Below the pieces are notes generated by a model that saw only the letters and a list, made by a program, of their open reading frames with translations, did not search any database and was not told the DNA's origin. This document shows, piece after piece, positions 15,831-57,539 of a stretch of 62,481 nucleotides of DNA. The DNA is from a virus. The position numbers were made by a program, and so were the translations under genes. Position 1 is the stretch's first letter. Each line of letters begins with the position of its first letter. Where the stretch lies: IMG/VR virus record IMGVR_UViG_3300030103_001665, positions 1-62,481 of that record, one strand, 5' to 3'.

Positions 15831-16190
15831 TTAATTTGTTAATATCCAATGTCTTTTATACACTGTAATATGGTTTGCATCTCCTTCAAACTGGCAATGT
15901 AATTTTCCATCTACAAAACTATACTTTATAAATACTTCGTAATTTTTTTCTTTATTTATTAGTTTTGTTTTAATATAATTTTCACCTTCTTCAATTACTA
16001 TTTCTGGTAAAGATTTATTTTCAGCAAAAGAAAAATTAATAAATTCATAACCTTTTTTTTCATCATGTAATATAACTACATAATAACTTGTTTTGCCACT
16101 TGACCAGGTTCCTCTTAATTTGTCACCTAATTCTGTACTGTTTATAGCAATGCTAAATAGCATAACTATACATAATAATAATTTTTTCAT
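15831..16190 (-). CDS. Exported small protein, possibly lipocalin-like (119 aa)
   Basis: Residues 1-18 form a Sec signal peptide (MKKLLLCIVMLFSIAINS). The mature part begins near TELGDKLRGTW and is beta-rich with a GTW-type first strand, reminiscent of small lipocalin-like or META-like barrels. There is no lipobox. The product would be in the periplasm or secreted. Its place between holin and packaging genes does not explain it. It adds to the group of exported proteins near 47.7-50.5 kb. Confidence 0.6.
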   Translation of the reverse strand: MKKLLLCIVMLFSIAINSTELGDKLRGTWSSGKTSYYVVILHDEKKGYEFINFSFAENKSLPEIVIEEGENYIKTKLINKEKNYEVFIKYSFVDGKLHCQFEGDANHITVYKRHWILTN

Positions 16191-16251: not shown

Positions 16252-16707
16252 TTACCCTTTGAATATGCTTGTAACCTTTTCACTACTTCGACCACCGAAA
16301 TAAGCTAGAACAACAGCCATCATAACTTTTTCAAAAGTATCGTTCCATAATTCATTTATATGAAAAGGTATTGTTTCTACACTATCTAGTATACCCGCAA
16401 AAGAAAATACAACAATACACCATACTAAAACTAATGGACGTACATTTTTTGACATCCAAGAATCAGACATAGAATCTGCTTCCCACCTTGATGTTATAGC
16501 TTCTATTTCTTTATTCTGTTGTTCGTATATTATTTGTTGTAATTTTATCTTATCATCTGCAGGAGCATCTGATTTTATTATTTCAGTTATAGCTTCTTTA
16601 GGAGAAGTTACTCCTTGTAATACATTACCTAATGTAGGATTTATTACAGTTGCTGCGCCAAGCAATAATTGCCCAACGGTCGTATCTTTAAATGCTTTTT
16701 TTGACAT
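16252..16707 (-). CDS. Holin, GTA holin-3TM-like
   Basis: The 151-residue membrane protein has an amphipathic/hydrophobic N-terminal stretch (residues ~10-30), the family phrase WEADSMSDSWMSKNVRPLVL (near 80-99), a hydrophobic segment LVLVWCIVVFSFAGIL and a further one near VMMAVVLAYFGG. This matches the three-segment holin family first known from gene transfer agents. It would make the inner-membrane lesion that releases endolysin. The likely endolysin (M15 peptidase) lies far away at 46.7 kb. The stop of the upstream gene overlaps this start. Confidence 0.75.
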   Translation of the reverse strand: MSKKAFKDTTVGQLLLGAATVINPTLGNVLQGVTSPKEAITEIIKSDAPADDKIKLQQIIYEQQNKEIEAITSRWEADSMSDSWMSKNVRPLVLVWCIVVFSFAGILDSVETIPFHINELWNDTFEKVMMAVVLAYFGGRSSEKVTSIFKG

Positions 16708-45735: not shown

Positions 45736-46749
45736 TTATTTCTTTTTACCTACGCCCCAATTTGAAGCTCCTCTTTTTCTACATTGAACTAATTGACCTG
45801 ATGCATAAGCGCTTGGCCAAACCTTTACAGCTGCTTTTACTTTATGATAACACGCATCTTTTTCACCTTTTTTTTTTAATGGAGACATCTTTAATTCTTT
45901 TAACTCTTTTTTACGCATAAAGTAATTGCTTCTAGGTTTATCAGCTTCGTAATGTGATTTTCTTTCCTTCATTGTAGTTCCATATAAAACAGAGGTTTTT
46001 AATTTCTCATCTTTTTTTTTTACTGGTTTTTTCTTTGCAAAAGGATCTATGTTTAATGGAGACATAGATGATTTTCTATTTGGAGCTAATTGCCATTTTT
46101 TAATTCCAGTTAGATCTTTTTCCTCAGCATCATTAGTAGGTATAAGTCTTAACTTCTTTTTAACAACATCATAATATTTTTCTCCTTTTTCCATATCATA
46201 TTCTTTTTGACCATCCGGTTTTTTAAGATATAATTCTTTTTCTCTTTTCCAAGCGTTTGATGCTGCTATACTATCATTTTCAGTAGCTGCTAACGGAGTA
46301 GCGTGCGGCATTTTAAATGTACCTATATTTTCTCTCATTTTTTCATTATGTTTAATTCCTTCTTTATTACCAGTTGTTCCTGGACTATTATATTTTCTTA
46401 CTTTACCCCAACCACCTGAGTGCATCATTTCTGAATCACAGTGATTAAATGGTGAAGATGATTCTCTTTTAAGTGCTGCTTTTAAAAATTTATAACCTTT
46501 ACTTAATCCTTTTGCAGCTAATCCAGCGGGTGCAAATGTTGTTGCAGCTTCTAATCCTAATTCCCATGGTTTTACCTTCTTATCACCGTCCCAATCTAAA
46601 TAATTTGTAACACGGTCAATAATTTTTTCACCTAGTTTTAATTTTTTTTTGTATGAACTTGGATTTTCTAATTTTCTTTTTTGAGTCATATTAGTACCCG
46701 GATCTCTATTTGCCCATTTAGCATCTGAATTTAACGGTGATTTTTTCAT
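45736..46749 (-). CDS. Basic late protein with SPL motifs (337 aa)
   Basis: SP motifs occur at KKSPLNSD (N-terminus), ESSSPFN, SSMSPLN and KMSPLKKKG. The C-terminal 45 residues contain ACYHKVKAAVKVWPSAYASG then QLVQCRKRGASNWG, a very distinctive domain seen in other marine phage proteins and some large viruses. The middle is Lys-rich with a DWDGDKKVKPWELG stretch that resembles an EF-hand-like loop. Function unknown; likely virion-associated. Its start overlaps the M15 peptidase stop by 3 bases. Confidence 0.62.
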   Translation of the reverse strand: MKKSPLNSDAKWANRDPGTNMTQKRKLENPSSYKKKLKLGEKIIDRVTNYLDWDGDKKVKPWELGLEAATTFAPAGLAAKGLSKGYKFLKAALKRESSSPFNHCDSEMMHSGGWGKVRKYNSPGTTGNKEGIKHNEKMRENIGTFKMPHATPLAATENDSIAASNAWKREKELYLKKPDGQKEYDMEKGEKYYDVVKKKLRLIPTNDAEEKDLTGIKKWQLAPNRKSSMSPLNIDPFAKKKPVKKKDEKLKTSVLYGTTMKERKSHYEADKPRSNYFMRKKELKELKMSPLKKKGEKDACYHKVKAAVKVWPSAYASGQLVQCRKRGASNWGVGKKK

Positions 46750-47204
46750 ATTACTTTATACTTTGTTTTTCTATCGTCTTTATATGCTTTAAGACATCTG
46801 TTTCTGTTATCTTCTTCTGACACATATGATATATGTACCCAGTTCGGATTCATGTCCGTACCAAATTCCCAAATCATTTGATCAAAATCTAAATTTTCTT
46901 TTATCCAATTATACATTTCAGCGTTTGTTTTATAACCAAATACATCGTCAATGTCAATTGCTTGTCCTTTACAATGTTGAGATGTTTTTGACCCACCGAT
47001 CTTAGTGTTAAGTTCAGATGATCTAAAAAATGAATTTACTTTTATTGGACCTCCAACCCATTCTCTTAATGGTTCAAATATTTTTTCTGCTAAAATCTTC
47101 ATATTTTCTACCTGCGTAGGATTAGGAGTATTATCTATACATCTACGTTTAGCAGTATTAGAATGTATTGCTTCCGCGTACGTTATGTGATTACTTATTT
47201 TCAT
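46746..47204 (-). CDS. M15-family peptidase (endolysin candidate)
   Basis: FFRSSELNTKIGGSKTSQHC then KGQAIDID gives the SxHxxGxAxD zinc motif, and NPNWVHISY supplies the second His. This is the D-Ala-D-Ala carboxypeptidase/peptidase M15A fold used as endolysin by many phages. I start it at 47204 (MKISNHITYAEAIHSN) because an upstream ATG lies inside the 47-aa gene. About 152 residues. It has no signal peptide and would rely on the holin. Confidence 0.85.
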   Translation of the reverse strand: MKISNHITYAEAIHSNTAKRRCIDNTPNPTQVENMKILAEKIFEPLREWVGGPIKVNSFFRSSELNTKIGGSKTSQHCKGQAIDIDDVFGYKTNAEMYNWIKENLDFDQMIWEFGTDMNPNWVHISYVSEEDNRNRCLKAYKDDRKTKYKVI

Positions 47205-47208
47205 ATTA

Positions 47209-47352
47209 TTAACTTCCATTAAATACAGCGTAAGCATTAACTTTACGCTTTTTACCAAAAGATATTGTAGCTATTAATTCTCTTCTATCTTTTGATTTTT
47301 CTTCTTGTGGGTAATACTTAGGATTAGTACTGTTTAGTTTTCTTTTTTTCAT
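47209..47352 (-). CDS. Tiny basic protein (47 aa)
   Basis: MKKRKLNSTNPKYYPQEEKS followed by KDRRELIATISFGKKRKVNA and YAVFNGS. Fills the gap between the M15 and 120-aa genes with 4- and 20-base gaps. Strongly basic; it could be a DNA-binding or lysis-associated peptide. No family known to me. Confidence 0.6.
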   Translation of the reverse strand: MKKRKLNSTNPKYYPQEEKSKDRRELIATISFGKKRKVNAYAVFNGS

Positions 47353-47372: not shown

Positions 47373-47735
47373 CTATCTACCGTAATAATTTCTTACAGGC
47401 TTTTTCGGAAGTTTAGTAACCTCTTTTGACATTAAGTTATTTTCATTTTTTCCTAAAATATACCCACCTGTTGCTGCGGCGGCACCACCTATTCTCGATG
47501 TTAGAGATGGCTTTTTTAAAGTACCTACAACCGGAACATTTGTCGGTTTAATAGTTGCTTCAAAAGGAATTCTATTTTTATTTAAAAGTTTTAAATTTTT
47601 AGCAGGTACAGCCATAGGCTTTGATTGCTTTTTTAGGTGTTTCTTTAAAAAGTATTTTCCTATGTCTTTAAAAGGATTAAATTGAGCTGGACTACTTGTA
47701 CCAGCTTTTCCTGTATTTCTATATGGATTTGCCAT
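47373..47735 (-). CDS. Small basic protein with SPA motif (120 aa)
   Basis: Starts MANPYRNTGKAGTSSPAQFN, nearly the same opening as the 206-aa protein (MAHPYRN). A basic middle and a hydrophobic Gly/Ala segment (IGGAAAATGGYILGK) near residue 90 could insert in a membrane. The SPx motif links it to the other late basic proteins. Function unknown. Confidence 0.55.
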   Translation of the reverse strand: MANPYRNTGKAGTSSPAQFNPFKDIGKYFLKKHLKKQSKPMAVPAKNLKLLNKNRIPFEATIKPTNVPVVGTLKKPSLTSRIGGAAAATGGYILGKNENNLMSKEVTKLPKKPVRNYYGR

Positions 47736-47737
47736 TG

Positions 47738-48148
47738 TTAAAATTTATTTGCGTTATTTATTTCGTTTATTGATTCTTGTATTTCTTTTAAGTCTGCTGG
47801 CATAACAAGATCTAAACCAGCTTTGAACACGATTTCTTTAACGCCATCTTTAAATATAATTAAAGTTGGTGCCATACGTACTCTATATTTTTTCTTTGCT
47901 TCAGGGGCTTTTGATATATCTACTCTATAATAAATTACATCTTTTAGCTCTTGCCACTCAGCAAAACAATTTGCTTCATTAAACTTAGCCCAAAACTCTA
48001 CCACAACTGGTTTTGTTTTATCATCACCAAAAGCTTTATTAGTATTAATAGCTTTTTCAAAACTACTATCATCTATCCAATATTCCTCAGGAACATCTTG
48101 TTGACTAAAAGATAAAAAAGGTATTAAAAGTAAAATTAAGTATTTCAT
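47738..48148 (-). CDS. Exported thioredoxin-like protein with degenerate active site (136 aa)
   Basis: The signal peptide MKYLILLLIPFLSFSQQ is of flavobacterial type. PVVVEFWAKFNEANCFAEW is the thioredoxin WCxxC region, but only one cysteine remains, and the downstream cis-proline loop is MAPTLIIFKDG with KEIVFKAG strand pairing after it. The protein should be periplasmic. Loss of the CxxC suggests a binding or nonreductase role rather than disulfide chemistry. It adjoins the lipoprotein and beta-barrel genes, forming an envelope-directed group. Confidence 0.75.
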   Translation of the reverse strand: MKYLILLLIPFLSFSQQDVPEEYWIDDSSFEKAINTNKAFGDDKTKPVVVEFWAKFNEANCFAEWQELKDVIYYRVDISKAPEAKKKYRVRMAPTLIIFKDGVKEIVFKAGLDLVMPADLKEIQESINEINNANKF

Positions 48149-48435
48149 TATCTATTTTTTTGAATGTCATATAATCTTTCATCAATCTTACCAAGATCTT
48201 GTAGTATTTTATCTACATCTTCTTGAGTATCCATAATTGTTTGACGAATTAACTCGTCCTTTAAATCATATTCAACTCTATCAATAACAGGTTCAGGCAT
48301 TTGCATAGCAAGAGCAATATCCGATTGTAGCGCAAACCACATTGTGGTTAATGATACAACTCCTCCAATTATTATTCCTATTGTTTTAAGATCTAGTGTT
48401 ATTTTAGTTGATTCCCCTATTTGTGGTGCTTCCAT
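48148..48435 (-). CDS. Single-helix membrane protein with coiled coil (95 aa)
   Basis: A short cytoplasmic N-terminus, one membrane segment (TIGIIIGGVVSLTTMWFAL, residues ~18-36), then a charged helical tail (DTQEDVDKILQDLGKIDERL). This shape fits spanin- or holin-type accessory proteins. Stop/start overlap with the thioredoxin-like gene and a 32-base overlap with the lipoprotein gene indicate tight coupling. Confidence 0.6.
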   Translation of the reverse strand: MEAPQIGESTKITLDLKTIGIIIGGVVSLTTMWFALQSDIALAMQMPEPVIDRVEYDLKDELIRQTIMDTQEDVDKILQDLGKIDERLYDIQKNR

Positions 48436-49117
48436 TGCCTCTACTTATGTTGTTATTACTTGGTTTACTCATTGATGGTGAATAGCTTGGTTTAGAATAA
48501 GTAGGTGTAGAATTATAACTAGGTCGAGAATAATTGTTACTAGGTTTATAATTATTACTAGGTTTATAATTATTAGTAGGTTTATATACTGGTGGTTTAT
48601 AAGAATTATTTACAGGTTTAATTCTTGGTATAATAACTATAGGTTTTACTCTAGGTTTAGCTCTATTATTTGCTATTGCAGTTTCTAAAGATCTAGAGGT
48701 TCTTCTACTATTATTATATACTATGTTATAACTTTGATTATGAAATGGTCCTTGTAACATAGGATCTTGCCAAGGTCTTTGCCATCTCCAAGGTCTCATA
48801 TACCAATCCCAATAATTCCAAGGTCTATAGAAAAAAGAATTGTAACCAAAAACCCATGGATCATATATAAAGTTATAATCTAACCACAAAGGTCTAGTAT
48901 GCCAATAAGAATAATAAGGTTGATAATAGTGTAATCTAGGTTTTATAGGTTTAAACTCTAGTCTTATTATATTAGCATTATAACTTGTAAATATAGAAGT
49001 AGCATCTTGACCTTCTTCTAAATATATAGTATCTGATTGTGTAATAAGCTTATAGCTACTGCAACTAGCAAACGCCGCAATAACCGCCGCATAAAGGACA
49101 ATTTTCCATAATTTCAT
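48404..49117 (-). CDS. Phage-encoded lipoprotein, Tyr/Trp-rich (237 aa)
   Basis: Lipobox AFASC at residues 15-19 after a short hydrophobic signal places Cys19 as the lipid-modified residue. Residues 65-115 are exceptionally rich in Tyr, Trp and Phe (YYQPYYSYWHTRPLWLDYNF, then WNYWDWYMRPWRWQRPWQ). The C-terminal third is Asn/Ser/Pro/Tyr low complexity with repeated NNYKPS units. Expected at the outer membrane or periplasm face. Function unknown; candidates are superinfection exclusion or late envelope disruption. Confidence 0.75.
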   Translation of the reverse strand: MKLWKIVLYAAVIAAFASCSSYKLITQSDTIYLEEGQDATSIFTSYNANIIRLEFKPIKPRLHYYQPYYSYWHTRPLWLDYNFIYDPWVFGYNSFFYRPWNYWDWYMRPWRWQRPWQDPMLQGPFHNQSYNIVYNNSRRTSRSLETAIANNRAKPRVKPIVIIPRIKPVNNSYKPPVYKPTNNYKPSNNYKPSNNYSRPSYNSTPTYSKPSYSPSMSKPSNNNISRGNGSTTNRGIN

Positions 49118-50307
49118 TATTTAAGTGTTATGTTCAGACCAACTGAACTGTTATATATTTTACTATCCCAAAACTTAGTATACTCTCCTTCAAAAAATAT
49201 ACCCATATTTTTACTAAGCTTCCAACCAAATTGTACTCCGGTTTGATAATCTTCCCATTGTTCTTTCTCAGCATCTTCTACTAATCCACCAAGTCCCCAG
49301 TTGTTTCTATTGTGATAACTAAAAGCCTCATCACCTTTTACATAATCATGATATGGTAATAAGTAAGAACCATAAGCATGGAGCCAAAAGTTATTTTTAT
49401 AATGATAATAGTCAAAACCGACCACAGGTGATACAACACCAAAAGCATCTATACCTTCCCATATTTCATCATTATAACGATTCATCAAATCAGTAAATAC
49501 TGTTTGCCTGAACTGTAAATCAGTATAAGCTACGGTTTCACCTTGTTCATTAATCCAATACCAATCAGATACTGTTTCGCCTGTATAATCATCTTCATAT
49601 GTATAATAGATGTCATCATAACCATAATAAAAACCAAGTGTATACCACGGGTTTACTGCAAAACCGTCCTCAGTAGTTTCATTCAACCATATTTCTACAG
49701 GATTGTAACCATAAGGACGCTCATGAGTTCTAAAAATAGCGCCTGCACTTAATGAAAACTTTTTACCAATAGGTAGTTTAGCTCTTACCTCAGCAGATTT
49801 ATAATCAAAGTTTATTTTACCTTGTTTTCTGCTTTCAACTTTTATCATGTGGTATTTACCACTATGTTTTAAAAAATATCTGTGATTTTTAAATACATCA
49901 TTTCTAGTTCTTTCTTTTTCAGTATGAAATATATATTCAAAACCTTTAATAGATGAATTAGGAGCTGTCATAGCTACGTTAGATTCACCACCATCATAAT
50001 ATTGTTTACCTTTTATTTCATAATCAAACCTCGCGATCTTACGAACACCAAATCCGTAACGATAATCATAGTCATAATAATCAGTTCCATCTACTACAAC
50101 AGGAACATCATATAAACTTCCATTAGGATTTGTTCTTACAAAATAACTTGGTGCATTTTCTTTTGCATTTTTAACATCACCAGCTACATAAAACGTACCG
50201 TATTTAAATAATTCATTATAAATAGATTTAAAAAATTTACCTTTTTCTTTTTCTTGAGCTGATAAAGAAAAGCTTAGTAGAAATATAATAGCTAATATTT
50301 TTTTCAT
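49117..50307 (-). CDS. Predicted outer-membrane beta-barrel protein (396 aa)
   Basis: The signal peptide is MKKILAIIFLLSFSLSAQ. The rest shows alternating amphipathic strands with many Tyr/Trp/Phe and acidic turns (ARFDYEIKGKQYYDGG, AEVRAKLPIGKKFSLSAG, FWLHAYGSYLLPYHDYV). The final strand SVGLNITLK resembles a barrel terminus. I see no plug domain or enzymatic motif. Barrels of this type are unusual in phage genomes and would sit in the host outer membrane. The coupled start/stop with the lipoprotein (TAATG) hints at a joint complex. Confidence 0.7.
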   Translation of the reverse strand: MKKILAIIFLLSFSLSAQEKEKGKFFKSIYNELFKYGTFYVAGDVKNAKENAPSYFVRTNPNGSLYDVPVVVDGTDYYDYDYRYGFGVRKIARFDYEIKGKQYYDGGESNVAMTAPNSSIKGFEYIFHTEKERTRNDVFKNHRYFLKHSGKYHMIKVESRKQGKINFDYKSAEVRAKLPIGKKFSLSAGAIFRTHERPYGYNPVEIWLNETTEDGFAVNPWYTLGFYYGYDDIYYTYEDDYTGETVSDWYWINEQGETVAYTDLQFRQTVFTDLMNRYNDEIWEGIDAFGVVSPVVGFDYYHYKNNFWLHAYGSYLLPYHDYVKGDEAFSYHNRNNWGLGGLVEDAEKEQWEDYQTGVQFGWKLSKNMGIFFEGEYTKFWDSKIYNSSVGLNITLK

Positions 50308-50522
50308 TTATTTTTTGTTTTACGTGATTTTCTTTTTCTTTGTAAAGAATCCCACTCTTTTTTTAATATTGTTTTTATAGTTATAACATTTTTACATGTA
50401 TCTGTTGTTATAACTTTTACTCGGTAATTTTCAATTTTTTCTACTTTAACTGTAATACATTTTTTTTGCGCATTAATTGTTAAAGAAAAAGATAATAATA
50501 AGATTAGAATAATATTTTTCAT
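50304..50522 (-). CDS. Small exported protein (72 aa)
   Basis: Signal peptide MKNIILILLLSFSLTINA followed by Q, then about 53 mature residues, mostly short strands and Lys-rich, with two Cys (one close to the new N-terminus, one in TDTCKN). Its stop overlaps the barrel start. Likely a periplasmic partner of the barrel. Confidence 0.65.
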   Translation of the reverse strand: MKNIILILLLSFSLTINAQKKCITVKVEKIENYRVKVITTDTCKNVITIKTILKKEWDSLQRKRKSRKTKNK

Positions 50523-50615: not shown

Positions 50616-53600
50616 TTATTTTTTAGGCATTAACCAATATTCTAAATCACCCGTAGGTCTTGCGATTTGTATAAAATCTACATTTAACTTTCCATCAGGT
50701 TTACCTTTTGTCATTGGTATTCTTTTATAACCTTTAGTTTTTAATTTATTAGCTTCATTTTTATATTTTGTTTTTACAGCTTCATCTTCATCTTTTTCTT
50801 TATCAATAGTTGTTTGTAATCCCCAGTATGGTAAACCAAGTTCCCAACCAGAATATCCAAACATTAAAGATACTCTTTGCCAAATTTCAGTATCTTTATC
50901 TACAGCTTGCTTTAAGTTCATCATTATTCTTGCTGCTCTATCTAAAGGAATATTAGTTGTAGCTGATACAATTTGAGCAATAGATAAATAAGCTGGATTA
51001 TCTAAATTAAACCCTCTACGTTTAATCTCTTTTCTATTCCAAGAAAAAGTTTTTGCTGCACTTCTAAGTTTTCTAACTTTAGAATCAATAGCTGGTGAAA
51101 AATTAAACACTTCACTTACAGCATCTTCATACTTAGGATTTTTCTTAGCTCCTTGTTGTGTTAGTTTAATTATAACATCTTTAACTGTTGCAACAGCTGC
51201 ACCACCATACCCTAAACCTCTTAATATAGAATCAACCATACCATTAGCTATATTACCAGCTCTATCTTCTGCTGTTCTTTCTTCTTCATCATCTGATCCA
51301 AAAGCCAAAGCAAACACCGCTTGTTGCATAGCGTTAAATATTAAGTTTTGTACAAAACCATAATAAGCTATTTTAGATAAGTTTGTTTTCCAATCGCCTC
51401 TACCATTAGCTAAGTCTAATGCAGATTTTTTCATTATTCTAGCGTACTGCATAGGAGTGTTAGCAAAGTTAAGTATTAATCTACCAATACTACTTGCTTG
51501 TTGCATTGATATTCTATCAGTTCTACTTGATTGCTGTGATTCTTCTGATATTTGATAAAAATCATCAAATGCTTTAGCTTCTGCTTCAGCTTTAGTATAA
51601 ACATTACCTGTATCTATATTTACTTGTTTTAGTAAAGCATTTACTCTATTTCTATAAAAACTTGCACCACCAGTTGCTATTGCCATACTATCTGCAAATC
51701 TTGTTAATACAAAACCTTTATTAAGTAAATAAGCTATAGTACCTTTCATACCACCTTTTCTAGCGGCTTCTGCTATTTCTGATTCAGCAACGTTTATTTT
51801 TAAACCATTACGTCTTTGTACTAAATAATCAGAGTTTAACAACGTCATTACATCTGACCAGTATTGCTTTTGATTAGCAAACGCTTTTGATGCAGCTACT
51901 GGATTATTATCTGACCAGTTTAAAAAGTTTACACTAGATATAAGCTGTAATGTAGCAGATCTCATATTTAAAAACATAACTGCACCAACAGAATTATTTA
52001 ACCAATCTAACAAGTTGTTAACTTGAGGGTTCATACCTATTGGTCTGTTACTACCAGATTTCATTCTACCTAAAGAATTTTTCAATGCTAGTATAAAATT
52101 ATTTCCGTATAAAGCTTCTAGTTTATTTAGGTTTTTATCAGAGAATATTATATCTACATTTTGTTGCCAATTTTGTAACGCTTCTTTTCTACCTGCTTTA
52201 TTTAAATTTTGTATAATATCACTAGTAATATTACCAGCCACCCAATTATTTCCAGGTTTTGGATATGATTTACCTTTTTGAATAAATGCTATTTTTTCTG
52301 CAAATACTTTTAAATCAGCATTGTTTTCTATTTTATCAACTAATCTATTTAAATCTCTTGTAGAAAGCCCAGGTATTTCCATACCCTGCATGTTCCATAT
52401 ATAAACTCTTAAAGCTTGTGAGTGAGTAAAATTACCTACACCAACTGGTTTGTTTAAGTTTTTAGGAATATTATCTATATTTTTTCTTAAAGCTTGAAAA
52501 TCATTTGCCACAGATATTTTATCTGATATTACTTGTTGTTCTGCTTTATTAAATGGATCAAATAAATTATCTTTAAACCATTTTTTAGCTAAGTTACCTT
52601 TTTCACCTTTTGGTAATATTTTATATAATAAACCAGCAAAGTCTTCTGCTGATGGTGGAATAAAGAACTCAAATGTACCTACTTTTCTACCAGTTGTTTT
52701 AGCTCTAGCTTCTGAATAAGTTTTATACCATTTTTTTCCGCTTTGTTGCTCTATTATAACATTAAACTCTTTATCTAAGTTTTTTACTTTATTTTTCTTG
52801 GCCTGCTGTACTTTAGATTTAACATCTACTTGGTCAAGAATGTTTTTTACAGCTTGAACATTGGGTAAAGCATCGTCAGCAAAATAAAAATCATTATATC
52901 CTTGAGCTGTTTTATCTAGTACCCATAACGCTTTGGCATCAGGTGATCCATCTTCTAAACCTGTTATGTTTTCTAAAGGTATGTTTAAACCAATACCATC
53001 TAAAAACGCTTTAATAGATACCGCAGAAGCTTGTGGTCTAGCTGTTAAAACAAATATATCACCACTCCCAAACTTTTCTTGACGCTTTAAAGCTAAATCA
53101 GCTAATGGTCCTTTTTTTCCTTTTATTACTTTGTTAAATTCACTAAAATCAAATTCAGCACCTTGCTCTTGTAAGTTTTCAGATTCAACAGCAAACTCAG
53201 CTGGTGTAATTTTTTTAATACTACCATCAGGCATATTAACAATTACTTTGCTTTTGCTATAAGCTAACGTATCATCAAAATCAAATACACTAATACCTTT
53301 TGTAGGAGTATTAATATCTCTAGCTTTTTGAGCAGTTTGATCTGCATTAGACATGTCAACTATAGATTGCTCTGTAGTACCATTTTCTTTTATTAAACCA
53401 AATATTTTTTCTTTATTGTTATTTACTTGTTTAAAAGATTTTTTATTTGTTTTGTTTGCAGCTTCTAATTCTTTTTTAGCTTTATTTATAGTAGTTTCGC
53501 CTTTAAAAACCTTAACTAATAAATTATTCTGCATGTTTATATTATCAGTATTTTGATTAGCTTTAGATAAACCAAGTCCTAAACTTTCAGCGATAGTTAC

Positions 53601-56600
53601 TATTTCTCCATCTTTATAAGTAACATATTCATTTAAATTTATTTCAGGATTTCCTAATAAATATCTTACCCAAGTATTAGGTTTGTCCATGCTAAAAAAA
53701 TCACTAGGCAACTGACTTCTATAACCAGCTAAAGCTATAATGTCATCATCAGTTTTTAATAATTGACCTTGTGTATAATTATCTTTTAAAAATTTAAAAT
53801 CTTTATTTACGCTATTATTAATAAGCATTTCTAACACAACCTTAGTAGCGTTGCTTGACGGTAAAGTATGTTCAGCTACAAAATTTTTAGCATTAGAATC
53901 CAGTTGATTATTAGTTGAGAAAAATTTAATAGGAGCTAAAACTCTCATAGGATGTGTTGATATATTACCTTGAGTATTCAACCAAGTTCCCCAAAACTCT
54001 AATCTTTCTTTTATTATTTTACCATTACTATCTCTTATATCAGTATTTATACCGTCTATTATCTTTTTTAATACTTTAATTTTATTTTCTTGAAGCTCTA
54101 TAAATTTCTTGTCTTTTAATAAAGCTTTTCTTTTTTCAGGCTTCATCTTAGCGTATTTAGCTTGTTCAGCTTCTGCTTCTTTTAATATATTAAAATCTTG
54201 TTCAGTAAAAATTTTACCATATTTTGGACCTGAAAACAAAGATGTTTTAGATAAATCAGTTAATTCGTTTATATTTTGTTTTACTCTTTTATTAAATATA
54301 GATCTACCACTATCAGCCCAAGATTTTGTATTTAAGAAAAAAGCTGTTCCAAAATTATCTAAGTTTCTTATAACGCTTTCATCTCTGTTTCTTTTTTGCT
54401 CTGCATTAAAACCATTAGATAAAGCTTTGCCTTTTTTCTTAGCAGGATATAAATCATAACCAGCAATATTTGCTAATTGTCTAACACTCGATTTAACTAC
54501 ATTACCTATTTTTTTTAATTCATCTATTGTAAGTTTAGGTTTTTTAGCTGCAGGTTTTTTAATAAAGTCTTTTATTGATTTTGTAAAATCTTTAAGAGCA
54601 GAAGCTAAAGATCTACCAGCATTTCTAGCAGCTCTAAGTGTTCTAAGTCCAGCTTCAACAACACCAGTTAAAGCATTCATAGATAAGTTTGTTTTTCTAA
54701 ATGTTTCTAACTGTGAGATAGCGTCACTTAAAAAGTCCGCTTCAATGTCATTTATATTTTCTTCTGTTATTCTATTATTAATAACATCTTCAACAGTATT
54801 TTCTACAACATCTAAAGATGTATCTTCTAGATTTCTTTTATCTAAATTATATTCAACTTCATTTATAAATTGCTCTGCAGTTAGATTTGATCCTTTTAAT
54901 TCTAATCTACCTTGTAAATCAGTCATAAACTGCTGATCACCTCTTAATTCTTGCATTTGCTCTATAGCAATGCCTTCACCTAACAGACTATATAATGATT
55001 GTTGACGTTTTTCATTAGCTTTGAAATAATCTTTTACAGCTTCTAGTTGAGCATCTGTTATAGCTGGTATTTTATAAACTTGTTTTCTAAAGTCAGTTCT
55101 TTTACCATCTTCTATCTTAGTAGTAGGTGTAGTACCAGTTTGTTGAATATTAAATAATTTACCAAATCTTCTTTTTATCTGAGCAATAGGGATTGTAGCA
55201 ATAAAATCTTTAGTAACTAAACGATCTACATTGTTATTGTATTGTTCGCTGTTCCATTTACCAAGTTTATCTTTTATAAGTTTTCTATAAGCAGGTGTTT
55301 GAGTTTGCTTAACAATAGATTGTGCTACAACTTTTGGTGAAGTGCTTTCAGTTGCTACAGCTCTATTAATATCGTCTTTAATTTTAACTGTTTGCTCTGA
55401 TCTTACTTCAGGTGTAATATTTTCAGTTATTACTTCTAATGTAGCAGGATAAACTTTAGCTCTTGCAGTTTCAGTTGGCGCTACATCTATATCTACTTCT
55501 TCAGCTACAACTTCTCTAGCTTCTTGCTTATCAAGAGTTGTTATATCTCTTTGACCTATATATTTATCATAAATACCTTGTGCTTTAGGAGCAATATTAG
55601 CAGTTACAAATGTAGAAAAAGATCCTTTGTCTGGAGACCATCTTTCCATTATACCCGCAAACTCCTTGTTTATTTCAGCTATAGCATCTTCTCTAGCCAT
55701 ATCACCTTTCCGAGTATCAAACATGATAGCTGCTAAACCTATTTTATTGTATTGATCTAGTAAAGCCTCAACATCTACATTAGCAGGGTTTTCTTGATAT
55801 TGTCTAGCTAATTCATCGGCTTTTATTGATGGTTTTCTAGTTGGTAAAATACTCATACCAACAGTTGCATCTCTTTCTGCCTGTACTTCATTAACAAGTG
55901 TTCCTAATTCAACATCTATTTCTTTAACTCTATTAGTTTGATTTTGAGTTAACGCAGCATCATTTACTTCTTTAATAGTTTTTTGTAAAATATTTTTTTC
56001 TTTCAATAAACCAACTGCAGTTGCGTTAAGATTTAATCCAACAGGTTTTAATTGATTAACAGCGCTTTGCGTGTTTCTATAATTTAATTTTATTTGATCA
56101 GCAGTGTTTCTGTTTATTTCACCTATTTCAATTTTTTTAGTAATTTGATCATCAAGTATTTGTTGAGAATTTGATATTTGAGTTATATTTAAACCTTGTA
56201 TAGGAATTGTTTGGTTAAAATCTGGATTATAAATAGTTGTTATATCACTTATGTTATAATCTTCATTTATAGCTTTTAAATTATTGTTTATCTTATTTAT
56301 ATTTACAGCTTCTTTTAAACCACTTGTAACTTGCATAATATTTATAGGTCCAGCATATGTAGCTCCTCCACCTACTCCCAATAAAAAAGCATCACTAACC
56401 CCTTCAAATGGATCTTTACCTTTTATCATGTTTTGTGTAATCTGGGTTGCTACTTCTTCTATACCTTCTCCTAAAGCACCAGCTGGAGCTCCTATTTTTT
56501 TAAGAGCTGTGGAATACATTTCAATTAGTCCATTTTTAAATACTTTAACGCCTTCTTTTTTACCTACTTTTAATATTATATCTTTGTAAACTCTTCCTAT

Positions 56601-57539
56601 AGTACCTGTTCCAATCATTTCATAAAATGTTTCTGCAGCTCCTAAACCTAAAGCTTGAGCTATAAGTATACCATCGTTAGTGTCAGGGTTTTCTTCTTTT
56701 AATTGTTTATATTCTTGAGAAGCAAAAGGAACTGTATATTTTTGAAGCATTTGCATTCTTGTCATACCTCCTATTCCACTCATTAACATTGCAATACTTG
56801 TAGCAGAACTTTCTGCTAAACCACTTCCCATTTGTTGAAAACCCTCTTTCCAGTTACCTTTTTTAAAATTTTCAGTAATCCCTTGTATATCATAATTATC
56901 GTCATTCCATATAGCTTGTTGATTTTCTAGTTTTGTTGTTTCTTCTTCATAAAAATCTAATAAAGTACGTCTAAATGGAATATCAATTTTAATATCTTTT
57001 TTAAAAGCTTCAGCTGGTGTTTCTCCAGGTTCTCCTTGCCTCCATTCTTTATCTAAAACACCAAGATCAACTAATTGGTTTTGAGGCCAAGAAAAGACAT
57101 TATACGCAAATTCAGGAAGTCCTAATACCATTTCTCCTAAACGCGTACTGCTTAACATTAAATCAACACCAAAAACTTTTTCTAAATAACTTTTTTTTAA
57201 AGTTTTCTCTCTTTCTTCTCTTTCTGTTTTTTCTTCTAAATTTTCAGTAAATTCTTCTAACGCTTGTTCATCTTCAACTTCTTCAGTTTGGTCAACTACT
57301 TCGTCTGGAACTACTGAAACTTCTGATACTGTCCCCGTAGGTTGATCTTCTTGTATGTTACGAATTTCATCTTCAGTTTTTATTTTAGTTGTATAATCAG
57401 GACTACTAAGCAATAAGGCTTGTATTGCAGAAATTTCTTCTTCTTTTTCTTCTTCATTTACCGCAACTTCACTTATTAAAGGTTTAATAAAAAGTTGAGC
57501 AAGAGGATCTAGGTTGTTTTCTTCTGTATGATTCGACAT
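50616..57539 (-). CDS. Giant internal virion/DNA-ejection protein with HAD phosphatase-like domain (2,307 aa)
   Basis: Residues 1-130 are acidic. The N-terminal third has hydrophobic helices around 225-400. A segment near 606-660 (ERWSPDKGSFSTFVTANIAP) resembles sigma-70 region 2 linkers. Residues ~1410-1560 hold a HAD fold: FDFDDTLAYSKSK (nucleophile DxDD), VLTARP (motif II), a conserved Lys and FADDALPNV (motif IV). The C-terminal part has NFANTPMQYARIMKK and hydrophobic helices (YYGFVQNLIFNAMQQAVFAL near 2050-2080), as in ejection proteins of other marine podoviruses. Probably injected with DNA to form a trans-envelope channel; the HAD part may dephosphorylate a nucleotide or host molecule. 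Confidence 0.8.
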   Translation of the reverse strand: MSNHTEENNLDPLAQLFIKPLISEVAVNEEEKEEEISAIQALLLSSPDYTTKIKTEDEIRNIQEDQPTGTVSEVSVVPDEVVDQTEEVEDEQALEEFTENLEEKTEREEREKTLKKSYLEKVFGVDLMLSSTRLGEMVLGLPEFAYNVFSWPQNQLVDLGVLDKEWRQGEPGETPAEAFKKDIKIDIPFRRTLLDFYEEETTKLENQQAIWNDDNYDIQGITENFKKGNWKEGFQQMGSGLAESSATSIAMLMSGIGGMTRMQMLQKYTVPFASQEYKQLKEENPDTNDGILIAQALGLGAAETFYEMIGTGTIGRVYKDIILKVGKKEGVKVFKNGLIEMYSTALKKIGAPAGALGEGIEEVATQITQNMIKGKDPFEGVSDAFLLGVGGGATYAGPINIMQVTSGLKEAVNINKINNNLKAINEDYNISDITTIYNPDFNQTIPIQGLNITQISNSQQILDDQITKKIEIGEINRNTADQIKLNYRNTQSAVNQLKPVGLNLNATAVGLLKEKNILQKTIKEVNDAALTQNQTNRVKEIDVELGTLVNEVQAERDATVGMSILPTRKPSIKADELARQYQENPANVDVEALLDQYNKIGLAAIMFDTRKGDMAREDAIAEINKEFAGIMERWSPDKGSFSTFVTANIAPKAQGIYDKYIGQRDITTLDKQEAREVVAEEVDIDVAPTETARAKVYPATLEVITENITPEVRSEQTVKIKDDINRAVATESTSPKVVAQSIVKQTQTPAYRKLIKDKLGKWNSEQYNNNVDRLVTKDFIATIPIAQIKRRFGKLFNIQQTGTTPTTKIEDGKRTDFRKQVYKIPAITDAQLEAVKDYFKANEKRQQSLYSLLGEGIAIEQMQELRGDQQFMTDLQGRLELKGSNLTAEQFINEVEYNLDKRNLEDTSLDVVENTVEDVINNRITEENINDIEADFLSDAISQLETFRKTNLSMNALTGVVEAGLRTLRAARNAGRSLASALKDFTKSIKDFIKKPAAKKPKLTIDELKKIGNVVKSSVRQLANIAGYDLYPAKKKGKALSNGFNAEQKRNRDESVIRNLDNFGTAFFLNTKSWADSGRSIFNKRVKQNINELTDLSKTSLFSGPKYGKIFTEQDFNILKEAEAEQAKYAKMKPEKRKALLKDKKFIELQENKIKVLKKIIDGINTDIRDSNGKIIKERLEFWGTWLNTQGNISTHPMRVLAPIKFFSTNNQLDSNAKNFVAEHTLPSSNATKVVLEMLINNSVNKDFKFLKDNYTQGQLLKTDDDIIALAGYRSQLPSDFFSMDKPNTWVRYLLGNPEINLNEYVTYKDGEIVTIAESLGLGLSKANQNTDNINMQNNLLVKVFKGETTINKAKKELEAANKTNKKSFKQVNNNKEKIFGLIKENGTTEQSIVDMSNADQTAQKARDINTPTKGISVFDFDDTLAYSKSKVIVNMPDGSIKKITPAEFAVESENLQEQGAEFDFSEFNKVIKGKKGPLADLALKRQEKFGSGDIFVLTARPQASAVSIKAFLDGIGLNIPLENITGLEDGSPDAKALWVLDKTAQGYNDFYFADDALPNVQAVKNILDQVDVKSKVQQAKKNKVKNLDKEFNVIIEQQSGKKWYKTYSEARAKTTGRKVGTFEFFIPPSAEDFAGLLYKILPKGEKGNLAKKWFKDNLFDPFNKAEQQVISDKISVANDFQALRKNIDNIPKNLNKPVGVGNFTHSQALRVYIWNMQGMEIPGLSTRDLNRLVDKIENNADLKVFAEKIAFIQKGKSYPKPGNNWVAGNITSDIIQNLNKAGRKEALQNWQQNVDIIFSDKNLNKLEALYGNNFILALKNSLGRMKSGSNRPIGMNPQVNNLLDWLNNSVGAVMFLNMRSATLQLISSVNFLNWSDNNPVAASKAFANQKQYWSDVMTLLNSDYLVQRRNGLKINVAESEIAEAARKGGMKGTIAYLLNKGFVLTRFADSMAIATGGASFYRNRVNALLKQVNIDTGNVYTKAEAEAKAFDDFYQISEESQQSSRTDRISMQQASSIGRLILNFANTPMQYARIMKKSALDLANGRGDWKTNLSKIAYYGFVQNLIFNAMQQAVFALAFGSDDEEERTAEDRAGNIANGMVDSILRGLGYGGAAVATVKDVIIKLTQQGAKKNPKYEDAVSEVFNFSPAIDSKVRKLRSAAKTFSWNRKEIKRRGFNLDNPAYLSIAQIVSATTNIPLDRAARIMMNLKQAVDKDTEIWQRVSLMFGYSGWELGLPYWGLQTTIDKEKDEDEAVKTKYKNEANKLKTKGYKRIPMTKGKPDGKLNVDFIQIARPTGDLEYWLMPKK

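Follow-up and report, generated by a model that had tools for sequence, protein, structure and literature searches.

A conserved trio of phage envelope genes coding for a predicted outer-membrane barrel, a one-helix membrane protein and a thioredoxin-like protein, with a possible role in lysis

In the spanin pairs Rz/Rz1 of phage lambda and PseT.3/PseT.2 of phage T4, one subunit sits in the inner membrane and extends a helical tail into the periplasm, the other belongs to the outer membrane, and both are encoded beside the endolysin and holin genes. In the survey of Kongari et al. (2018), no spanin was found in 91 of 677 phages (13%), about 96% of the known spanin pairs had a periplasmic cysteine for an intermolecular disulfide, and an outer-membrane protein was proposed as a possible o-spanin (PMC6139136). 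For phages in which no spanin is recognisable, the gene trio described here is a concrete candidate for the means of breaching the outer membrane. The module is compact and portable, occurs beside unrelated endolysins and holins in hundreds of viral contigs of marine origin, and makes the idea of an outer-membrane protein acting as o-spanin directly testable.

The window, that is, the whole stretch of DNA analyzed, is a virus contig of 62.5 kb. Its terminase and portal proteins resemble those of flavobacterial podoviruses, with 45% and 41% identity, respectively, to Elemovirus (on Flavobacterium) and further matches to the Cellulophaga phages phi38:1 and phi19:3 and the Tenacibaculum phage Gundel; therefore, the host is most likely a marine member of Flavobacteriia. 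The closest relative in these two proteins is the uncultured MW202828 (62% identity in the terminase). The window also codes for GroEL, ribonucleotide reductase, thymidylate synthase and other replication proteins. The phage GroEL (26894-28435) matches phrog_5725 with an E value of 5e-140, and both GroEL and GroES are present in cultured relatives. The conclusions presented here are drawn from sequences, from structure predictions for single chains and from the neighborhood of the genes, and most of the contigs compared are fragments.

Five open reading frames encoding exported or membrane proteins were confirmed at positions 47738-50522, as the original prediction had stated; they lie on the minus strand, with ends that overlap or touch each other (Table 1). 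In the order of transcription they code for a 72-aa exported protein, the barrel, a lipoprotein, a one-helix transmembrane (TM) protein and a thioredoxin-like (Trx) protein, and the successive joins are a 4-nt overlap of the ATGA type followed by overlaps of 1, 32 and 1 nt. According to a simple hydropathy rule, 9 of the 73 operon-consistent open reading frames in the window are exported-like. A run of at least five was obtained in 0.05% of the shuffles (P about 0.0005), so that five exported genes in a row are unlikely by chance. A glutamine occupies the expected +1 position of the signal peptide in the barrel, the Trx protein and the 72-aa protein, being invariant (Q18) in 38 aligned barrels and nearly invariant (Q16) in the Trx family. 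Glutamine at +1 is the Q-rule described for signal peptidase I substrates of Bacteroidetes (PMC5837995), and it supports, short of proof, export and cleavage of these proteins in a Bacteroidetes host. The large protein encoded upstream of the cluster (2307 aa) had no match in a PHROG profile search, and its stretch GISVFDFDDTLAYSKSK resembles a HAD-type phosphatase motif.

Table 1. Location of the five-gene cluster and of neighboring or lysis-related genes in the window.
Feature	Coordinates	Strand	Evidence
GTA-type holin, far from the endolysin in this phage	16252..16707	-	phrog_3427 holin, E 1e-17; PF11351, E 6e-4, below gathering score
M15 peptidase endolysin	46746..47204	-	PF08291, E 8e-17; phrog_894 endolysin, E 2e-32
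Small conserved ORF (47 aa) immediately preceding the endolysin	47209..47352	-	40/80 loci
120-aa ORF between trio and endolysin, probably a small phage-specific protein	47373..47735	-	One homologue in 80 loci
Exported protein of thioredoxin fold lacking CxxC (Trx, 136 aa), trio core	47738..48148	-	PF00085, E 1e-7; AF2 pLDDT 84
95-aa one-helix inner-membrane protein (TM), trio core	48148..48435	-	74/80 loci; alignment; phrog_1009
237-aa Tyr/Trp/Pro-rich lipoprotein (lipobox AFASC), variable accessory	48404..49117	-	BLAST homologues in 11/80 loci
396-aa predicted outer-membrane beta-barrel, trio core	49117..50307	-	AF2 model; porin matches; 80 loci; at least 525 relatives
72-aa exported protein, variable accessory	50304..50522	-	Signal peptide; two Cys in mature part; homologues in 23/80 loci
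Late protein of 2307 aa encoded upstream of the five genes, large virion/ejection type by position	50616..57539	-	Homologues before barrel in 68/80 loci

Relatives of the barrel were detected in at least 525 contigs of IMG/VR. The gene order barrel-TM-Trx was found in 130 loci, TM-Trx-barrel in 24 and barrel-TM-TM-Trx in 9, the last carrying a tandem pair of TM-family genes (for example L195, 6398-7001, and L064). Barrel-only cases were few and, judged from the coordinates, mostly fragments ending near the gene. The five genes are a conserved trio (barrel, TM and Trx) and two variable accessories. The cluster is a genuine set of envelope genes, but the "complete envelope set" previously claimed for it was overstated, since most loci lack the lipoprotein and the 72-aa protein. 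Searches with the 72-aa protein against Pfam, PHROG and NCBIfam gave no match below 0.01. Other lipoprotein or YfiM-like families occur in about half of the trio loci; one YfiM-like family of small exported proteins or lipoproteins (L093, 9401-9724) recurs beside the trio and the endolysin in 32 of 98 trio loci, and another recurrent neighbor is a protein of 47-80 aa starting MWKLTKQYW.

The variability of the two accessories, together with other exported proteins that come and go in the region, would be in agreement with independent accessory genes (morons) lacking a common function in a permissive late region. This explanation is quite improbable for the trio, which is constant across hundreds of contigs and stays together in the permuted order, and this maintained linkage argues for a joint function. 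The Mantel correlation of distances was 0.83 for TM-Trx and 0.23 for both barrel-TM and barrel-Trx. The Trx proteins of the permuted order share on average about 27% identity with those of the other lineage, and some barrels are 84% identical across both orders. Since TM and Trx distances covary while the barrel follows them weakly, and similar barrels pair with both lineages, TM and Trx are inherited as a pair, the barrel having been joined to two old and deeply different TM-Trx lineages. In addition, TM-Trx is present and the barrel was undetected in whole contigs of 58.4 and 60.6 kb (L391, L394; G016, G017), so the barrel is not obligatory.

Homologues of the barrel and TM proteins were not found in cultured phages, even with divergent members at relaxed limits, and the only cultured-phage match for Trx was a weak one to a Streptomyces phage thioredoxin. 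The trio was found only in uncultured phages, and the literature searched, that outside subscription journals, held no description of it. It is a widespread and undescribed phage envelope module.

The Trx protein was confidently assigned to the thioredoxin fold by both the profile match and the AF2 model (Table 1), and it shares with thioredoxin (PF00085) the fold and the cis-Pro loop. Unlike thioredoxin, it is exported, lacks the catalytic CxxC and usually has NxxN in its place. In the protein of this phage, FN-EA-N is found where thioredoxin has WC-GP-C, N57 and N60 are invariant in 26 sequences, and the motif A-x-[FWY]-N-x-x-N is conserved in 137 of 181 distinct Trx sequences, with a second lineage that has neither asparagine. 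The earlier description as a signal-peptide thioredoxin-like protein stands for the fold and for the signal peptide, but the catalytic cysteines are absent. CxxC was found in none of the 131 family members, at odds with a redox-active thioredoxin; therefore, a role in binding rather than in redox work is suggested.

The prediction of an outer-membrane barrel was supported by the AF2 model and by structural matches to porins. The model, of moderate confidence (mean pLDDT 74, pTM 0.64), shows about 12 antiparallel strands, and together with the signal peptide this corresponds to a closed, even-stranded outer-membrane beta-barrel. The matches to porins included CymA (Z 12.8) and OmpG (Z 11) by VIA-align and NanC (2e-4) by Foldseek, both lists being used for the general fold only. 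In the model, the phage protein shares the general architecture of CymA and OmpG, which are 14-stranded porins, and of other outer-membrane barrels; unlike CymA and OmpG, it has about 12 strands, a large inserted loop, a viral family of its own and no significant sequence similarity to them. No Pfam, PHROG or NCBIfam family matched the barrel. A strong structural match over most of its length is the unnamed viral protein A0A516LKJ4 of BFVD (E 4e-26, TM 0.64/0.73, 23% identity). The BFVD matches include small predicted outer-membrane barrels of the DUF680 type in marine cyanophages, a group without spanins according to Kongari et al. (PMC6139136). L451, L452, L453 and L454 contain a divergent subfamily of barrels, about 350 aa long and accompanied by a TM and a Trx of their own; genes for exported proteins of 765-1058 aa come downstream of these barrels, and the M15 endolysin comes downstream of those genes.

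A host origin of the barrel has been looked for and not found. The matches in metagenome-assembled genomes (MAGs) resemble misplaced phage contigs: MAGs labelled Woesearchaeota, Alphaproteobacteria and Maricaulis (L090, L091, L092, L093) hold contigs of this phage group, probably as binning errors, and five separate barrel copies occur in one 0.6-Mb "Woesearchaeota" bin. For the bacterial family to which one match belongs, 298 further genomes were searched and none contained the barrel family, so no host outer-membrane protein that the barrel might mimic was detected.

These data bear on the roles in superinfection exclusion or receptor masking first suggested for the cluster, in which the barrel and its partners would alter the cell surface and block adsorption or injection by other phages. 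Other phages are known to encode proteins of the outer membrane or cell surface that act in this way, such as Lom/Cor-type proteins and Llp of T5, and the large barrel loop (residues 196-288) is placed outside by the inferred topology. However, this loop is conserved rather than diversified, with 27 of its 93 positions invariant, no host homologue was found in the 298 genomes, and the inner-membrane TM protein and the redox-dead Trx would be left without a role. The late-operon position beside the endolysin, and a linkage that persists as endolysins and holins change, also count against exclusion. No sequence match to a named exclusion family was found in Pfam, PHROG or NCBIfam, and with nothing else positive in its favor this role is not very likely. 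Even if exclusion were the function, the trio would still be a widespread undescribed envelope module with a redox-dead thioredoxin.

The porin-like predicted fold, and the position of the barrel after a large virion-type gene, would also fit a porin that makes the infected cell take up other compounds or become more or less permeable, or a protein that takes part in adsorption or in the assembly of the virion. Both are highly improbable. A virion role is unlikely because of the signal peptides, and the genes to which the barrel is linked are those for lysis, not those for metabolism or the tail, with the exception of a few loci of a different phage type (L074, L075) in which it comes after ribonucleotide reductase genes.

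The TM protein is predicted to have a single N-terminal helix and a charged C-terminal tail that probably forms a coiled coil, and hydropathy and a weak charge bias point to an N-in topology. No other protein encoded in the late regions of the window is clearly a type II membrane protein, and the only lipoprotein there is the one encoded at 48404-49117. The family phrog_1009, of unknown function, matched 18 of 22 TM-family members, and one member gave a weak match to a holin PHROG. The TM protein as the holin was set aside, though not firmly, because GTA-type or Phage_holin_4_1 holins occur alongside it.

The association of the trio with lysis genes has been analyzed in the deduplicated loci with enough surrounding DNA, and a member of an endolysin family was present within 3 kb of the trio in 106 of 111. 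Within 1 kb it was present in 94 loci, compared with a mean of 40 and a maximum of 55 in 2000 random placements in the same loci, a proximity that owes something to shared ancestry. The endolysin beside the trio is mostly an M15 peptidase, replaced by Amidase_2 in L055 and by PG-binding plus Amidase_2 in L069, where the holin is of the Phage_holin_4_1 type; in L075 a DUF5675 protein is encoded nearby. The GTA-type holin gene adjoins the endolysin and the trio in relatives of this phage, following them in L055, L093 and L105. An exported protein of 119 aa and unknown family is encoded in the window (15831-16190) directly downstream of this holin gene. Barrel-less TM-Trx pairs lie directly, or with one small open reading frame in between, before the endolysin and the GTA-type holin in L367, L378 and L391, and in L457 the TM gene alone lies directly before Amidase_2 and the GTA-type holin. 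This nested series of TM, TM-Trx and trio beside lysis genes ties each of them to lysis.

The barrel-less arrangements would also be expected if TM-Trx regulated lysis timing, in an antiholin-like or endolysin-controlling way, with the barrel as a separate outer-membrane factor. Co-divergence of TM and Trx to the exclusion of the barrel and the weak holin match of one TM-family member go in the same direction. Nevertheless, the barrel stays linked to TM-Trx in both gene orders, and the signal peptide of Trx and the predicted periplasmic tail of TM suit bridging, so that control of lysis timing is considered unlikely. Among the roles originally proposed, the two-membrane release device fits best with the genomic context, in which the trio is tied to several unrelated endolysin and holin families.

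The reading proposed as most likely is that the trio is a lysis module spanning the envelope, and hence a candidate for disrupting the outer membrane in phages that conserve no canonical spanin pair; a probability of about one half is given to this proposal. From the genes, their linkage, the predicted folds, the loss of the active site, the Q-rule signal peptides and the diversity of the associated lysis genes, we infer a topology, physical contacts and an action on the outer membrane as follows. The one-helix protein would be anchored in the inner membrane and would extend its charged, helical tail into the periplasm, where the redox-dead thioredoxin would bind it as a protein-protein adaptor, and the barrel would enter the host outer membrane through the export and assembly machinery of the host. 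The holin would open the inner membrane and the M15 endolysin would cut the peptidoglycan; then, the bridge formed by the trio could help to disrupt or fuse the outer membrane, the step performed by spanins in other phages. In this phage the lipoprotein may assist. Several observations weigh against the lysis module: the barrel covaries weakly with TM-Trx and was undetected beside it in the contigs of 58-61 kb, a TM protein of 95 aa is short for bridging the periplasm, and lysis regions attract unrelated accessory genes too. The broader proposal, that an inner-membrane helix, a pseudo-thioredoxin adaptor and a phage-encoded barrel replace the spanin pair in a large group of uncultured marine flavobacterial phages, as a new type of machine by which phages of diderm bacteria disrupt the outer membrane, is a tentative one.

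The replacement of spanins has been considered by counting Rz-like genes, defined as single-N-terminal-helix genes of 90-260 aa near M15 endolysins. Of the M15 loci lacking the trio, 40 of 58 had such a gene, and of those carrying the trio, 24 of 125. The latter number fell to 3 of 125 after removal of families that are evidently something else, but these exclusions were chosen once the data had been seen, so the raw 24 of 125 is the fair figure. However, the loci with the trio fall into what is essentially a single clade of the M15 tree, which leaves one or two independent contrasts with Rz-like genes. In an unbiased marine M15 sample, the 19 loci without a nearby trio were mostly without Rz-like genes too, and four of those examined have a divergent trio a few kb further off. 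The claim that the trio replaces an Rz-like spanin was consequently downgraded, the contrast being phylogenetically confounded and trio-less loci also being without Rz-like genes; it is compatible with replacement without demonstrating it.

Compared with the known spanin types, the trio lacks a constant lipoprotein subunit, since 42 of 98 trio loci are without the lipoprotein or YfiM-like families seen here, and it also lacks the cysteines of two-component spanins, the TM protein having none and the lipoprotein only that of its lipobox. As for unimolecular spanins, the lipoprotein has no C-terminal hydrophobic segment and the TM protein has no lipobox. The TM protein has one N-terminal helix, a charged helical tail and a location near endolysins, which would fit a type II (N-in, C-out) i-spanin, but its charge supports this topology weakly and its 95 aa are short. 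Given a lipoprotein that varies between loci, a TM protein free of cysteine and the absence of any one protein reaching across both membranes, the trio may act like a spanin but is not called one. Related podoviruses carry in the same neighborhood, beside their endolysins, the Rz-like genes gp35 of elemovirus, gp84 of phi38:1 and gp87 of Gundel (matching DUF6549), putative spanins that are single proteins of 184-215 aa with an N-terminal helix and are not homologous to the trio. With lambda Rz/Rz1 and T4 PseT.3/PseT.2 this window has in common, in addition to the general arrangement, an overlapping lipoprotein gene; the TM protein of the trio is much shorter than the membrane proteins of those pairs, has no cysteine and shows no sequence relation to them. 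Unlike in Rz/Rz1, the conserved outer-membrane partner in the trio is a predicted beta-barrel, and a third protein, periplasmic and of thioredoxin fold, is added.
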